From positions 1-20,540 of IMG/VR virus record IMGVR_UViG_3300025769_001088: a stretch of 20,540 bases of DNA. One strand, written 5' to 3'. Source of the DNA: a virus. Below are positions 3,130 to 12,018 of this stretch, one piece after another. The notes beneath the pieces were generated by a model that saw only the letters and a list, made by a program, of their open reading frames with translations, made no database searches and was not told the DNA's origin. Position 1 is the first letter of the stretch. Every line of letters begins with the position of its first letter. Position numbers and translations under genes: made by a program.

Positions 3130-3377
3130 CCCTTTGGGTTTTTGAGCCGTCCGCCCACCGCGTCATTTGCGTAGTCGTAGAGCAGGTTGATGATGTCCTG
3201 AACTTGGTCTGCACTGATGTTAGGAGTATTTGCTACGAGAGAGGCAAATCCCTTCACGTCGTCAGGCACAAGCCGAGCGGCTTGGTTGAGCACGGAGAGG
3301 TTTCGACCGAAGTGGAAGTCGTTGAGGTAGAGCACCGCCGCACCGACGGGGCGTTGGAAAAAATTGTCTTTTACCAT
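3126..3377 (-). CDS. Hypothetical protein, 83 aa; first gene of operon
   Basis: An 83-residue protein with a basic N-terminus (MVKDNFFQRPVGAAVLYLND) and a helical remainder ending GGRLKNPKG. I place the start at 3377 and not at the in-frame GTG 3464, because the longer form would be encoded by the long palindrome 3416-3458, and because TCAAACTTCAA lies 12 nt before this ATG as in parallel leaders. It is the promoter-proximal gene of an operon of seven leftward genes (3377 to 1863). Function unknown. Confidence 0.7.
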   Translation of the reverse strand: MVKDNFFQRPVGAAVLYLNDFHFGRNLSVLNQAARLVPDDVKGFASLVANTPNISADQVQDIINLLYDYANDAVGGRLKNPKG

Positions 3378-3961: not shown

Positions 3962-4314
3962 ACCTCGATGGATTTTGCGTTAGCAAAGTCGTAGATGGCC
4001 TTCTCGCCGCGCGCTTCTGCGAGTTCGAGGGCAACCGACTTTGACTTGATGATGTCGGAGACCTCAAGGTAGACGATTCCATCGTCAACCCATCCGCCAA
4101 TCACTTGTGATTCGTCGGGTAAGTATGACGCAAGCCGAGCCATTTGAGCGGAGAACACATTGAACGAAAGAATTTCGTTTGCCATCGTGAAGACCTTGCC
4201 GCCCTTCACACCACCAACGGCGTAGCCGTCGCCTACATAGGTAAGGTATCCGTCTGGGCGGACGCTGAAGCCCTCACCGCTTTGGATGAGGAAGTAAAGA
4301 GATTCGATTTTCAT
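3958..4314 (-). CDS. Hypothetical alpha/beta protein, 118 aa
   Basis: A 118-residue protein. The N-terminal half is beta-rich (YFLIQSGEGFSVRPDGYLTY), and the C-terminal part shows G-G-W-V-D-D-G-I-V-Y-L-E-V-S-D-I-I followed by a helix (ALELAEARGEKAIYDFANAK) ending SIEV. The VYLEVSxxIxxxxxALELAxxRGExAIYDxxxxxxIEV pattern is one I know from tailed-phage accessory proteins of unknown role. The start at 4314 gives an ATGA overlap with the upstream gene. Several mini-hairpins (4072-4086, 4099-4112, 4163-4179) lie within it. Confidence 0.7.
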   Translation of the reverse strand: MKIESLYFLIQSGEGFSVRPDGYLTYVGDGYAVGGVKGGKVFTMANEILSFNVFSAQMARLASYLPDESQVIGGWVDDGIVYLEVSDIIKSKSVALELAEARGEKAIYDFANAKSIEV

Positions 4315-4499
4315 TGCTTGAGAGTTTTGGTAAGTGCATCGAAGATGCAATCTTGAAGTTCAAAAGTTTCGGCTGTGTATGTGAGGCCACCGAATTCATC
4401 GCGCACCTCAAGGACACATTCGCCCAAGAGATGCGGGGCATTGTCGAGCAGTTGCTCGGTGACGAGGATAGCCACGTCACGGATGTCGTCTTTTGTCAT
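4311..4499 (-). CDS. Hypothetical protein, 62 aa; first gene of operon
   Basis: A 62-residue acidic helical protein starting MTKDDIRDVAILVTEQLLDN and ending LTKTLKQ. It heads a five-gene leftward operon (4499 to 3468) joined mainly by ATGA overlaps. Its leader is copy A of an 84-bp repeat carrying a 7-bp hairpin, a second 4-bp hairpin and TCAAACTTCAA 12 nt before the ATG. A 6-bp C-GAA-G triloop hairpin is inside the gene at 4335-4349. Function unknown. Confidence 0.7.
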   Translation of the reverse strand: MTKDDIRDVAILVTEQLLDNAPHLLGECVLEVRDEFGGLTYTAETFELQDCIFDALTKTLKQ

Positions 4500-4580
4500 C
4501 GTAGATGAGGTTTGAAGTTTGATACAGACACCACTTTCGTGGTGTTTCGCCTACTCAAGGCTCGTCAGTGTACCTTGAAT
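4497..4580 (-). repeat. 84-bp leader repeat, copy A
   Basis: It matches 4736-4819 at 77 of 84 positions. It contains the start codon of the gene 4311-4499, TCAAACTTCAA (4512-4522), hairpin 1 ACACCAC-TTTC-GTGGTGT (4528-4545), hairpin 2 GCCT-ACTCA-AGGC (4549-4561) and the last codons plus stop of the upstream gene 4565-4738. Compared with copy B, hairpin 2 carries a C-G pair where B has G-C, and hairpin 1 differs only in its loop. It is probably a structured leader controlling the gene at its left. Confidence 0.8.
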
Positions 4581-4738
4581 GCCTGTTGAAACAAATTGCC
4601 CATCACTGAGCAATCAGCCTCCGTGAGAGGCCCGTAGTGTTCGAGTTGGCGGTCGTAGAAAAACTGCACCTTGTCCCAGTTACCTTTGGTAATGTGGTGC
4701 ACAATCTTGGGCAGGTAGCCGTTTGGGTATTTTTTCAT
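4565..4738 (-). CDS. Hypothetical small basic protein, 57 aa
   Basis: A 57-residue protein starting MKKYPNGYLPKIVHHITKGN and ending FQQAFKVH; basic and aromatic, soluble, family unknown. It is supported by coherent composition, by a leader (copy B of the 84-bp repeat) in the same arrangement as copy A before the next gene, and by the TCAAACTTCAA motif 12 nt before its ATG. Its last codons lie inside repeat copy A; the equivalent bases in copy B (GTACACTGA) are a non-coding relic, so the duplication included a gene end. Confidence 0.65.
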   Translation of the reverse strand: MKKYPNGYLPKIVHHITKGNWDKVQFFYDRQLEHYGPLTEADCSVMGNLFQQAFKVH

Positions 4739-4819
4739 CGTAGATGAAGTTTGAAGTTTGATACAGACACCACTAAAGTGGTGTTTCGGCTACTTAAGCC
4801 TCGTCAGTGTACCTTGAAT
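4736..4819 (-). repeat. 84-bp leader repeat, copy B
   Basis: The second copy lies between genes 4565-4738 and 4825-4971. Hairpin 1 is ACACCAC-TAAA-GTGGTGT (4767-4784), hairpin 2 GGCT-ACTTA-AGCC (4788-4800), and TCAAACTTCAA is at 4751-4761. Stems are retained while the loop of hairpin 1 and one stem pair of hairpin 2 have changed, the latter on both sides. This is what selection for pairing would give. Confidence 0.8.
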
Positions 4820-4836
4820 TGATATTACATATCAAT
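4818..4836 (-). other. 8-bp triloop hairpin at the end of gene 4825-4971
   Basis: ATTGATAT (4818-4825) and ATATCAAT (4829-4836) pair perfectly around TAC. The stop codon of the gene (4827-4825) is inside the structure. It abuts repeat copy B and may mark the transcript end or be part of the general mini-hairpin pattern. Confidence 0.55.
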
Positions 4837-4971
4837 CAAATCCTCAAGGGTCATCTGCTCAAGGCAGGTGAGTTCGTCCCACTCAGCGCAAGCACGCACT
4901 GCGTCGAAGGAGAGGTGGCTGTCGAGGATGTCAGCAATCAGCTGACGGCGGATGTCTGCAAAGGTCTGCAT
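4825..4971 (-). CDS. Hypothetical acidic helical protein, 48 aa
   Basis: A 48-residue acidic, helical protein starting MQTFADIRRQLIADILDSHL and ending LEDLIDM; family unknown. I choose ATG 4971 over the upstream TTG at 5007 because TCAAACTTCAA (4983-4993) would otherwise be coding, and it sits 11 nt before this ATG as in parallel leaders. The long palindrome copy 3 lies 46 nt upstream. A 6-bp hairpin (4930-4946) is inside the gene. Confidence 0.65.
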   Translation of the reverse strand: MQTFADIRRQLIADILDSHLSFDAVRACAEWDELTCLEQMTLEDLIDM

Positions 4972-4982
4972 AGGTTGATGAA

Positions 4983-4993
4983 TTGAAGTTTGA
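4983..4993 (-). promoter_or_regulatory. Leader motif TCAAACTTCAA before gene 4825-4971
   Basis: An exact match to the 11-mer, ending 11 nt before the ATG. It sits between the long palindrome (5018-5060) and the start codon, the same order as at 1186-1257 and 3390-3458. Confidence 0.55.
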
Positions 4994-5017
4994 AAAATGT
5001 TTGTCAAAGAGTGTCCA

Positions 5018-5060
5018 GTATATATACTCTCTTCACTACGTTCAGAGAGAGTATATATAC
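5018..5060 (-). promoter_or_regulatory. Long palindromic leader element, copy 3
   Basis: Identical over all 43 bp to 3416-3458: 15-bp perfect arms, 13-nt loop. Beyond the core the stem continues with GTCC and GGAC, different from copy 2 (GTGTT/AACAC), so both sides of the outer stem changed together. It lies just after the stop of 5076-5189 and before the leader of 4825-4971. Exact conservation of the loop as well as the arms suggests recognition by a protein or polymerase. Confidence 0.7.
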
Positions 5061-5075
5061 GGACTCTCTAATGGT

Positions 5076-5189
5076 TTAGCCGTTGACGAAGAAGTCGATG
5101 GCGTCCCAAATCACGTAGGCCGCACAAGGCACAACTGCGAGAGCACACAGGAAGACGGGGACTGACTCAAAATAATCGTAGAAGTTCAT
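5076..5189 (-). CDS. Small single-span membrane protein, 37 aa
   Basis: A 37-residue protein: MNFYDYFESV, then a hydrophobic stretch PVFLCALAVVPCAAYVIW, then DAIDFFVNG. One transmembrane helix of about 18 residues is likely. It begins 11 bp after the stop of the Lys/Ala-rich gene and shares the catcgtagatga start-region sequence with the genes starting at 4499 and 4738. It is probably co-transcribed with 5201-5725. It is the same length as the other small membrane protein at 3663-3776, though the sequences differ. Function unknown. Confidence 0.65.
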   Translation of the reverse strand: MNFYDYFESVPVFLCALAVVPCAAYVIWDAIDFFVNG

Positions 5190-5200
5190 CGTAGATGAAT

Positions 5201-5725
5201 TTAGAGTTGGAATGGCAATTCTTCAATGCTAACTTCGTTAGCATTCACAGGCAGGGCTGACTGCATATGCACTGCGAGGGCCGCAGTCAGAGCCTCAATC
5301 TTTGCTTCCAAGGAAGCAATGCGAGAGTCGTCTTCAACCTTTGGTTGAACACCGCGAGCCACCTTCTTGACGGCCACCTTCTTGGCTTTAGCCAAAGCCC
5401 GCTTCTCATCCATCTCTTGCAGAGATGCTTTAGCGGCTTCTACTGAAGCCGTCTTAGCCTTCGAAGAAGGCTTCACGGGGGTGTCTGCCTTGCCGTGGAA
5501 GGCCTTCTCCTGCTTGTCAGCAACTCGTTGCTGTGGGGTGGCCCGCTTCGTCGTCTTACGACGACGCTTGGCCTTTGGCTTTGCCGCTTTGACCTCTTCG
5601 AGGTCATTGATGAAGTTGATGGCCTCCATCAGCAGTTTCACTGCTTCCTGCTTCCGCTCTGCGGTTGGACGGAAGATGGCTTGGTTTGCCGCTTTGCGGC
5701 AGTCGTTGAAATTGAACTTGTTCAT
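5201..5725 (-). CDS. Lys/Ala-rich basic protein with C-terminal helix, 174 aa
   Basis: Residues 1-45 are a mixed helical domain (MNKFNFNDCRKAANQAIFRP). Residues about 47-125 are very rich in Lys, Arg and Ala (AKPKAKRRRKTTKR, later AKKVAVKKVARG), resembling histone-H1-like or other nucleic-acid-compacting tails. Residues about 132-150 form a likely coiled-coil helix (RIASLEAKIEALTAALAVHM), and the end is acidic (VSIEELPFQL). Nucleic-acid binding is a reasonable inference from composition, not proven. It is the right-most, promoter-proximal gene of the leftward block. Its coding DNA is filled with 14 or more short perfect hairpins, which is not expected from the protein sequence alone. Confidence 0.75.
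   Translation of the reverse strand: MNKFNFNDCRKAANQAIFRPTAERKQEAVKLLMEAINFINDLEEVKAAKPKAKRRRKTTKRATPQQRVADKQEKAFHGKADTPVKPSSKAKTASVEAAKASLQEMDEKRALAKAKKVAVKKVARGVQPKVEDDSRIASLEAKIEALTAALAVHMQSALPVNANEVSIEELPFQL
5225..5701. other. Mini-hairpin array, coding half
   Basis: Perfect stems (left arm start to right arm end): 5225-5245 (9 bp, loop TTC), 5302-5319 (7-8), 5333-5349 (7, TTT), 5382-5395 (5-6), 5411-5427 (7, TGC), 5434-5451 (7, TACT), 5456-5472 (7, GAA), 5518-5533 (6-7), 5549-5566 (7, TTAC), 5590-5606 (7, TTC), 5617-5631 (6, CCT), 5631-5645 (6, TTC), 5654-5664 (4, TCT), 5687-5701 (6, TTT), plus an 8-bp stem with an 18-nt loop at 5257-5290. Random sequence should give about one stem of 6 bp or more with a 2-5 nt loop per kb (my estimate). 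Stems are unrelated in sequence. Confidence 0.85.
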
Positions 5726-5751
5726 CGGAGATGAAGTTTGAAGGTTAACCC

Positions 5752-6229
5752 AATCGGCGACTTCTCAAAACCGATTAGGAGTTAGTAGGAAGGAAGAGAA
5801 GTCATAGACTTCCCTTCTCTTTCTTCCTACAACTCTACTTTGACCGAATTTATTACTTACTTGTAAGTAATCCTTGAGCCAAATCTCGGAACTCACAGGA
5901 AGCCAACAAGTTGGCTACGTGGTGTTCGGTGTACCTACGCCGCTCCGCCAAGGGAATTTTTGTGTTGGATTTCAAACCTCAATACGAAGTATTGAATAGT
6001 TAACAGAACTTGGCAGAGTCACCCCGTTAAGGGGTGGAAGATGTTGGAGTTTACCTTTAGGTAAGGGATTGTTCCGACCTTCGGTCCAACACGTTACCAA
6101 GCTTCGCTTCGACCATCGGTTCAACCAATCGGCTCTAACTGACTGAAAGTCAGGGGGAAAAAGCTGAAAAGTTAGCGCAAACTCGTAAGAGTTTGAGGGG
6201 GAGGGGGTTTTGGAATCCGTTTCGGATTC
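5752..6229. other. Mini-hairpin array, non-coding half
   Basis: Hairpins in order: 5752-5776 (6 bp, loop 13), 5785-5830 (17 bp), 5852-5871 (8-9), 5901-5916 (6-7), 5979-5995 (7, GAA), 6020-6036 (6, GTTAA), 6051-6064 (5-6), 6076-6086 (4, TTC), 6099-6109 (4, TTC), 6111-6121 (4, ATC), 6139-6153 (6, GAA), 6163-6176 (5), 6178-6195 (7, GTAA), 6213-6229 (7, TTT). Several carry the extra-stable C-GAA-G triloop on one strand. They are set almost end to end from 5979 on. Taken with the coding half, about 28 hairpins occupy 1 kb. Confidence 0.85.
5785..5830. other. 17-bp stem hairpin in the divergent region
   Basis: Arms 5785-5801 and 5814-5830 pair over 17 bp with a single G-T wobble, closing a 12-nt loop; an alternative inner hairpin GAAGTC-ATA-GACTTC is also possible. 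One arm is pure purine over most of its length. It lies 60 bp upstream of the Lys/Ala-rich gene. No U-run on either side, so not an ordinary terminator; it is the strongest single structure of the array. Confidence 0.75.
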
Positions 6230-6378
6230 AACGCGCGCACGTTCACATATACATATAATCCCCACGATCGGTATTTCTCACGATTTTTTGCGGGTTTTTG
6301 GGGCGTGTTTACTTAAATGACCCTTAAATATCGTAAAAACAGTGCTTTAGGCGGTTCACTTAAAGTTTTGCTTGAATC

Positions 6379-10608: not shown

Positions 10609-11208
10609 ATGAAGACATTGGATCTCTTTGTCGTTGAGCTAGAAAAGAAGCTCAATGATACTATCGTCACGGACGGCGGTTTGGAGCTCTACGTGGACAG
10701 CAAGTTCAACGCTTTCGAGCATAGGGTCACTGAGGGCCCCGTAGTCGCTTCTCCTTTAAAACACGATACCGGGGCCGAGGAGGGCGACACCCTCTATTTC
10801 CATCATTTGGTGGTGCTTAATGAGGGCCAGCCGCTAACGGGGCACGAAAACCACTATTTGGTAAGGTATGACCCCGTAAACACGGTTAACAACCAAGCCA
10901 TAGCGTATAAGAACAAAAAGGGCGAAATCAAGCCCTTGGCGGGGTGGACGTTACTCTCTCCGGTAGATGAGGGCTCCCCCGGAAAGCAATCAGACCTTAT
11001 AGAGGTGGTGAAGCTCGTAGAATCCCCAGTTAGAAAAGCCAAGGTGGCGTTTGAATGCGCTTCTACCGACGAACTAGGGCTCAAAAAGGGTGACGTCGTG
11101 GGATTAAAAAAGAACAGGGATTACGAGATAACTATAGACGGTAATAAGTACTTTAGAGTTCGCGCAGAAGATATTCTCTATGTCGAAGAAGAAGTTCACA
11201 ACGATTGA
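10609..11208 (+). CDS. GroES-like co-chaperonin, 199 aa
   Basis: The C-terminal part (about residues 153-192) reads LGLKKGDVVGLKKNRDYEIT then I-D-G-N-K-Y-F-R-V-R-A-E-D-I-L-Y-V, the classic GroES ending (G-D-x-V ... D-G-x-x-Y-x-x-x-R-x-x-D-I-L-x-V). The N-terminal half holds a second strand-rich GroES-like part (EEGDTLYFHHLVVLNEG, later WTLLSPVDE). At 199 aa it is about twice the length of bacterial GroES, like some phage-encoded versions. Such proteins cap the host GroEL and assist folding of phage capsid proteins (as gp31 does in T4); here it sits in the virion operon before TerL. The mobile loop is not identifiable by eye. Confidence 0.75.
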   Translation: MKTLDLFVVELEKKLNDTIVTDGGLELYVDSKFNAFEHRVTEGPVVASPLKHDTGAEEGDTLYFHHLVVLNEGQPLTGHENHYLVRYDPVNTVNNQAIAYKNKKGEIKPLAGWTLLSPVDEGSPGKQSDLIEVVKLVESPVRKAKVAFECASTDELGLKKGDVVGLKKNRDYEITIDGNKYFRVRAEDILYVEEEVHND

Positions 11209-11601: not shown

Positions 11602-11675
11602 TGGGGCGTAGTTCAGTTGGTTAGAGCGTCTGTCTTATACACAGGAAGTCGTGGGTTCAAGTCCCACCGCCCCAA
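11602..11675 (+). tRNA. tRNA-Ile (anticodon UAU)
   Basis: A 74-nt full cloverleaf: acceptor TGGGGCG/CGCCCCA, D-arm GTTC-AGTTGGTTA-GAGC, anticodon stem TCTGT/ACAGG with loop CTTATAC (anticodon TAT), T-arm GTGGG-TTCAAGT-CCCAC, discriminator A. No encoded CCA. It reads AUA codons, rare in many hosts; the phage genes here do contain ATA codons frequently (e.g. in TerL and portal). Confidence 0.9.
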
Positions 11676-11683
11676 CAATTTAT

Positions 11684-11929: not shown

Positions 11930-12003
11930 GCCCTCGTAGCTCAACTGGAGAGAGCATTTGCCTTCTAAGCAAACGGTTACAGGTTCGAGTCCTGTCGGGG
12001 GTA
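11930..12003 (+). tRNA. tRNA-Arg (anticodon UCU)
   Basis: A 74-nt cloverleaf: acceptor GCCCTCG/CGGGGGT (with G-T pairs), D-arm GCTC-AACTGGAGA-GAGC, anticodon stem TTTGC/GCAAA with loop CTTCTAA (anticodon TCT), T-arm ACAGG-TTCGAGT-CCTGT, discriminator A. No encoded CCA. It decodes AGA, frequent in the virion genes around it. It starts 6 bp after the previous gene's stop. Confidence 0.9.
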
Positions 12004-12018
12004 CTAAATTAAATTGAC

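Follow-up and report, generated by a model that had tools for sequence, protein, structure and literature searches.

That secondary structure can be under selection is well established for RNA. In DNA, hairpins guide replication proteins at single-strand initiation signals, at primosome assembly sites (the PriA and DnaG hairpins of single-stranded DNA phages and plasmids) and at mitochondrial OriL, and the cruciform-forming plasmid origins of the pT181 type carry a single nicked hairpin that is bound by the Rep protein. To our knowledge there is no case in which dozens of neighbouring, sequence-unrelated hairpins in double-stranded DNA, including hairpins inside a protein gene, are kept by compensation at the DNA level, and we found no description of such an array in the literature, where coverage of subscription papers was thin. 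The early promoters P1–P3 of phage N4 are three hairpins, extruded under supercoiling, that the virion RNA polymerase reads. Their DNA stems are 5–7 bp, and their 3-nt loops are closed by a C-G pair and begin and end with G and A; this closing pair and these loop ends are required for extrusion at physiological supercoiling (PMC4496689).

The array described here, which is shared by a group of marine bacterial viruses, lies in a virus record of 20,540 bases, the whole of which was analysed and is called the window below. It resembles the N4 promoters in these stem and loop features, in that stem identity is largely free, and in its place beside the early genes of a podovirus, but it comprises 20–40 hairpins on both strands and runs through a coding gene, without shared bases, without an RNA polymerase that we could find, and in a different phage group. 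PriA/DnaG-type sites and OriL are one or two specific structures, whereas the array is a dense set of unrelated hairpins in a double-stranded DNA phage, with a putative function. Like the pT181-type origins it places inverted repeats in or beside a site of duplex opening (a putative one in the array), but the hairpins are many and no Rep nickase was found. REP/BIME elements and tandem hairpin repeats also bring many palindromes close together; all of these, however, share sequence, while the array stems do not and compensate individually.

Hairpin excess and distribution among relatives

Counting as a hairpin any perfect Watson-Crick stem of at least 6 bp with a loop of 2–6 nt, without overlaps, we found 24 stems at positions 5180–6230, compared to 1.19 ± 1.13 (maximum 5) in 200 dinucleotide shuffles; for stems of at least 7 bp, the corresponding numbers were 14 and 0.34. 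The gene at 5201–5725 on the minus strand contains 13 stems vs 1.04 (maximum 5) in 1000 synonymous-codon shuffles. The excess claimed in a sequence-only reading of the window was thus confirmed, with a density far above both dinucleotide and codon-preserving shuffles. Of the two counts given in that reading, about 20 was about right (by the same definition, 5225–6229 holds exactly 23), while about 28 was slightly high. The proposed bounds of 5225–6229 capture a real core, but the array continues to the left of 5225, with 10 stems in 4000–5180 where 1.3 were expected. Hairpin density in the other ~18 kb of the window is near background. All nine hairpins of 7–9 bp that had been listed exist, although one sits at 5548–5564 rather than 5549–5566, and a reported 17-bp stem at 5785–5830 turned out to be imperfect, having a perfect 6-bp core (5798–5812) and mismatched extensions. 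Stem comparison agreed with the earlier observation that the stems are unlike one another, so that the shared repeat sequence that defines REP/BIME is missing, and the array indeed passes from non-coding to coding DNA without change. The single-stranded gaps between hairpins would be short (median 25 nt). The parts of the array are as follows.

5180–6229, no strand assigned: dense array core, 24 perfect stems of 6–9 bp with loops of 2–5 nt
Core stems, first 12: 5185–5199, 5225–5245, 5271–5287, 5302–5319, 5333–5349, 5382–5395, 5411–5427, 5434–5451, 5456–5472, 5518–5533, 5548–5564, 5590–5606
Core stems, last 12: 5617–5631, 5687–5701, 5721–5735, 5798–5812, 5852–5871, 5901–5916, 5979–5995, 6020–6036, 6051–6064, 6139–6153, 6178–6195, 6213–6229
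4072–5179, no strand assigned: fading array tail, 10 stems starting at 4072, 4099, 4163, 4335, 4445, 4528, 4734, 4767, 4818 and 4930
5726–6239, minus strand: non-coding leader between the conserved block and the array gene, 9 stems; relatives have stems in the same places with different sequence

In the window, leftward genes lie to the left of the array and rightward structural genes to its right. Both the terminase and the portal have matches in podovirus families of PHROG, and the nearest annotated relatives are Elemovirus, Pachyviridae and Callevirus (Pervagoviridae) phages of Flavobacterium, Cellulophaga and Maribacter, with terminases 35–50% identical; an uncultured 60.8-kb podovirus is another near relative. 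We considered membership of the Crassvirales and rejected it, as gut crAss-type terminases were only ~22–27% identical over part of their length in most records. Judging from the hosts of the annotated relatives and from a promoter box of Bacteroidota type (see below), the host is presumably a member of the Bacteroidota.

Using the array gene and its divergent homologues as queries, we obtained ~45 related phage contigs, all with this array where the genes diverge and each having 20–40 hairpins within about 1–2 kb, and the larger array-bearing records contain one array each. Every array-bearing record tested has a homologue of the 5201–5725 gene; none of four large relatives that lack this gene has the array, and we found no other protein that marks array-bearing genomes. 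Among the cultured relatives, Flavobacteriia podoviruses of the Pachyviridae, Pervagoviridae (Callevirus) and Elemovirus that are related in terminase and portal, the array was also absent from the examined parts of elemoA, phi46:3, phi38:1, Panino and MW202828. On a terminase tree, in which some array labels were set by a crude threshold, the array is patchy even among close relatives, suggesting that it was gained, lost or exchanged several times. Amplification chimeras are ruled out, since the hairpins are conserved and compensated in many metagenomes that are independent of one another. Seven contigs from different relatives (L130, L136, L139, L140, L156, L162 and L163) end in or beside the array, seemingly more often than is likely, which might reflect assembly trouble caused by hairpins, strain variation or a physical end.

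Selection on base pairing

In close pairs of relatives, the stems are strongly conserved relative to the spacers between them. Between L130 and L131, 2 of 308 stem positions have changed (0.6%) vs 71 of 655 spacer positions (10.8%; p 1.5e-10), and the two stem changes together make up one compensated pair; between L168 and L170, the numbers are 4 of 273 and 81 of 855 (p 1.2e-6). The pattern is not uniform, as the stems of L005 and L029 have changed faster than their spacers, with five compensated pairs. In total, 341 distinct compensated pairs were found in conserved hairpins among 67 locus pairs, a count of distinct sequences rather than of independent evolutionary events. Changes in conserved hairpins are isolated single pairs and not replaced arms, and a codon alignment shows hairpins in the same place rebuilt from different codons, for example CAACTC-aga-GAGTTG in L005 and CAACCC-aga-GGGTTG in L029, or TGACCTC-gaa-GAGGTCA in the window and CAACCTC-gaa-GAGGTTG in L029. 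The comparison of relatives did not bear out the refuting outcome named in the sequence-only reading, stems broken without compensation. The hairpins are under strong selection, mutated stems being restored by compensation.

Because structures that act as RNA can accommodate G-U pairs but not A-C, we counted one-sided changes in otherwise conserved hairpins. In the array, the two mismatches were equally rare (30 G-T and 38–40 A-C), as opposed to 65 G-T and 6 A-C in the tRNA stems of related phages (Fisher p = 3e-10 against the array; the tRNA stem positions are approximate, which weakens the contrast and does not create it). Imperfect array stems agree with this outcome. The G-U-tolerant covariation expected of an RNA element is thus lacking, and Rfam gave no match in the array, two tRNAs being its only matches.

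The loops also have distinctive features. In the non-coding leader, 62% of the loops are 3 nt and 31% are 2 nt, and 139 of 148 (94%) are closed by a 5'-pyrimidine/3'-purine pair vs 33 of 57 upstream, a preference that nearest-neighbour energy models fail to account for. GNA or TNC makes up 47 of the 92 leader triloops, where 12.4% would be expected; with 19 GNA and 28 TNC they occur in either orientation, and this symmetry fits a structure formed on both DNA strands. A strand bias toward GAA loops (66 vs 25 GNA/TNC) is confined to the coding part and was treated as codon bias. Similarly, we discarded a spacing signal of 10.75 nt as evidence of helical phasing, since it is found only in the coding part, where recurring homologous spacings or alpha-helix periodicity (3.6 residues) give the same value. 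The leader has no helical (10.5 bp) phasing, and thus nothing points to a lattice of protein on the duplex. In summary, the selected form looks like DNA rather than RNA, and we are highly confident that the hairpins are selected at the DNA level.

The conserved block and the gene inside the array

The array has one sharp edge, marked by a conserved block, and it overlaps a gene.

6240–6294, minus strand: conserved block at the sharp array edge, reading leftward GCAAAAAATCGTGAGAAATACCGATCGTGGGGATTATATGTATA; single copy per genome
6402–6409, plus strand: TACCTTTG, by its consensus a rightward host-type -7 box of the Bacteroidota, ~145 nt beyond the block
5201–5725, minus strand: array gene encoding a basic, helical protein of 174 aa with a predicted C-terminal helix and an SSB-like tip, ..EVSIEELPFQL

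The block has the core GTGGGGATTATATNTA and, toward the array, the fuller consensus GAAAAAA..GGGAG.AAT.T..A..GTGGGGATTATATATA. When 34 non-redundant loci were aligned on it, hairpin density was 1.2–2.9 per kb over the 1 kb upstream, 10–14 per kb in the first 500 nt downstream and 17–25 in the next 500, staying at 10–25 per kb across the first 1.1 kb and reaching background by ~2 kb. The array is thus on one side only, and most first stems start 20–70 nt past the block. Being AT-rich and single copy with an upstream A-tract, the block has the features of an opening element, but a promoter could look alike. We regard it as a candidate for an origin or an element for unwinding, or else for a leftward promoter of non-host type, which is equally possible because a host-type promoter is missing near the leftward operon, none being found near the array in most relatives. 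Many relatives have a rightward -7 box like that of the window, located at about -145 to -175. There was no clear flip in GC skew at the block, most loci lack DnaA boxes, and eight loci inspected for iterons had none. The block is common to the array-bearing loci examined and to array-less relatives, so the array is dispensable for the role of the block in the latter.

The array protein has no family or PDB match (Pfam, PHROGs, PDB). Its AlphaFold model is all-helical and partly disordered (pLDDT 71, pTM 0.27) rather than an OB fold, and PF00436 gave no match above the cut-off. A D/E-rich C-terminal tip ending in [ILV]PF is found in the majority of 20 aligned homologues, some with two extra residues; most end in DELPF, SDLPF, DEVPF or INVPF, and the tip is missing or altered in the divergent homologues of L121, L126 and L109. 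The SSB tip is DDDIPF (PMC5872125, PMC7145534). A separate conserved protein of ~100 aa with such a tip (EDIPF, ADLPF or DDMPF) is encoded in the early operon, near replication genes, in eight of nine genomes examined (G001, G002, G004 and G010–G014, but not G005), which makes the resemblance of the array-protein tip meaningful. This protein is probably the phage's own unrecognised SSB; searches for a phage SSB domain found none above the cut-off. A phage family-A DNA polymerase was not found either, and the phages do have a primase-helicase, a ribonucleotide reductase and an endonuclease I-like protein.

Possible functions of the array

The structural claim is strong. The excess, conservation, compensation, lack of wobble tolerance, DNA-like loops, one-sided position and linked gene come from the computations; origin function, protein binding and recruitment are inferred. 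For an array of DNA hairpins selected to fold as DNA on either strand, we tentatively favour, at somewhat less than an even chance, a zone of strand opening and loading, probably at a replication origin. Among the functions put forward in the sequence-only reading, a replication origin or single-stranded DNA landing region is the best; selection at the DNA level speaks for it, as does the SSB-like tip of the array protein, but neither GC skew nor DnaA boxes lend it support; taken by itself, an origin or loading-zone function is possible rather than probable. In such a zone the duplex would open at the block, most likely a replication origin, and the inverted repeats would extrude as small cruciforms or fold when the strands are apart. 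Folding after strand separation is more plausible than simultaneous extrusion, which is unlikely because 24 cruciforms per kb would absorb much superhelicity. Tight loops of 2–3 nt, often GNA, would hold the hairpins folded, and hairpins on both strands would prevent the 1–2 kb zone from re-annealing while short single-stranded gaps stay free. The array-encoded protein, basic, oligomer-like and with its SSB-type tip, would bind the zone, and the tip would recruit SSB-tip-recognising members of the host replication machinery (primase, PriA or the clamp-loader chi), after which the phage primase-helicase and host polymerase would load.

We consider it conceivable, though somewhat doubtful, that the array is a new DNA element: a zone of 1–2 kb in a double-stranded DNA phage genome, in which both strands have been selected into dozens of sequence-free micro-hairpins, overlapping the gene for its own SSB-tipped partner and holding the duplex open to load replication proteins at a defined site. 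If true, this may be a novel means of opening a duplex and keeping it open, and the paired SSB-tipped protein makes the loading-zone idea directly testable. The array also provides a natural experiment, with a great many replicates, on whether small cruciforms, or hairpins in separated strands, arise in living cells and function there.

The main competing idea, which we regard as unlikely, is that early transcription is controlled in a supercoil-dependent way. The block would then be a leftward early promoter, and extruding hairpins would serve as a torsional switch or sink, or as polymerase sites in the manner of N4 with an injected or host polymerase. The sharp onset of the array 20–70 nt past a promoter-like block, the lack of a host-type leftward promoter nearby and loops that obey the N4 extrusion rule (PMC4496689) are consistent with this idea, and the hairpin chemistry does fit the N4-type promoters suggested in the sequence-only reading. 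The full rule (C/G-GNA on one strand) is, however, followed by 32 of 92 leader triloops, about a third and not all, and the hairpins, 20–40 per genome, lie in both orientations without the fixed recognition bases of N4 or a strong stem or flank consensus, so that true N4 promoters are disfavoured. Pfam, PDB and motif searches of the giant proteins found no RNA polymerase; a Pfam search for the T7 type (PF00940), in which the control gave no match either, carries no weight. A giant virion-region protein (G001 33946–43257 and equivalents; 1,700–3,900 aa, near the end of the late operon) has no known domain and is very variable in length and sequence; as a candidate polymerase it was rejected, being poorly conserved and without an RNA polymerase motif or a Pfam or PDB match.

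It is improbable that the array serves in protection or counter-defence, with hairpins hindering host nucleases, recombination proteins or defence systems on the region expressed first. Patchy presence among close relatives together with a linked accessory gene does resemble an accessory module, but the linked protein has no homology that hints at defence (Pfam, PHROGs, PDB), and the position at one conserved block, instead of at genome ends or dispersed, would be left unexplained. An action of the hairpins in the leftward mRNA (its leader and first genes), for instance against Rho, nucleases or R-loops, is quite improbable as well. The array does lie only on the side of the leftward operon, beginning after the putative promoter and fading with distance, but the wobble test (30:40 in the array vs 65:6 in tRNA) disfavours this as it does the structured leader RNA proposed earlier, the leader loops are strand-symmetric and favour 2–3 nt GNA/TNC over RNA tetraloops, and Rfam has no match. 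Lastly, a mutational by-product of template switching by the replication enzyme, perfecting imperfect palindromes as the earlier reading had also considered, would suit an array that spans coding and non-coding DNA alike, same-place stems that differ among relatives and the fast-changing stems of L005/L029, but it is very improbable and as the origin of the array largely refuted, given that spacers in the closest pairs have changed up to 18 times as much as stems, that changes in conserved hairpins are isolated compensated pairs, and that the array occurs at a single site and only in genomes where the linked gene is present.

Several further elements were observed in and around the array.

5077–5190, minus strand: small ORF of 37 aa, MNFYDYFESVPVF..., with its start codon inside the hairpin at 5185–5199 (TTCATC-tac-GATGAA); conserved in L003
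5013–5064, no strand assigned: long imperfect palindrome GTCC-GTATATATACTCTC...GAGAGTATATATAC-GGAC, downstream of the array gene; kept in L003
4767–4784, minus strand, second copy at 4528–4545: intergenic hairpin element CGAAACACC-loop-GGTGTCTGTATCA, both copies just upstream of minus-strand ORF starts

Hairpins of the form TTCATC-nnn-GATGAA contain the start codons of ORFs on the minus strand at 5185–5199, 5721–5735 and 4734–4748, and do so in relatives too; they could influence translation. The palindrome is AT-rich (TATATACTCTC..GAGAGTATATA) and is a possible terminator, promoter or recombination site; in a similar place, near locus position 3370, L121 has a 10-bp TCTCTCTATA hairpin. The intergenic element also occurs in L003, L005, L029, L108, L109 and L110, with a conserved outer stem and a freely rebuilt apex. 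On the rightward side, a protein with a GroES-like co-chaperonin domain is encoded upstream of the packaging genes (10609–11208), and relatives also have GroES/GroEL genes. Between the first rightward genes and the terminase are tRNA-Ile(tat) at 11602–11676 and tRNA-Arg(tct) at 11930–12004, the latter being common in relatives.
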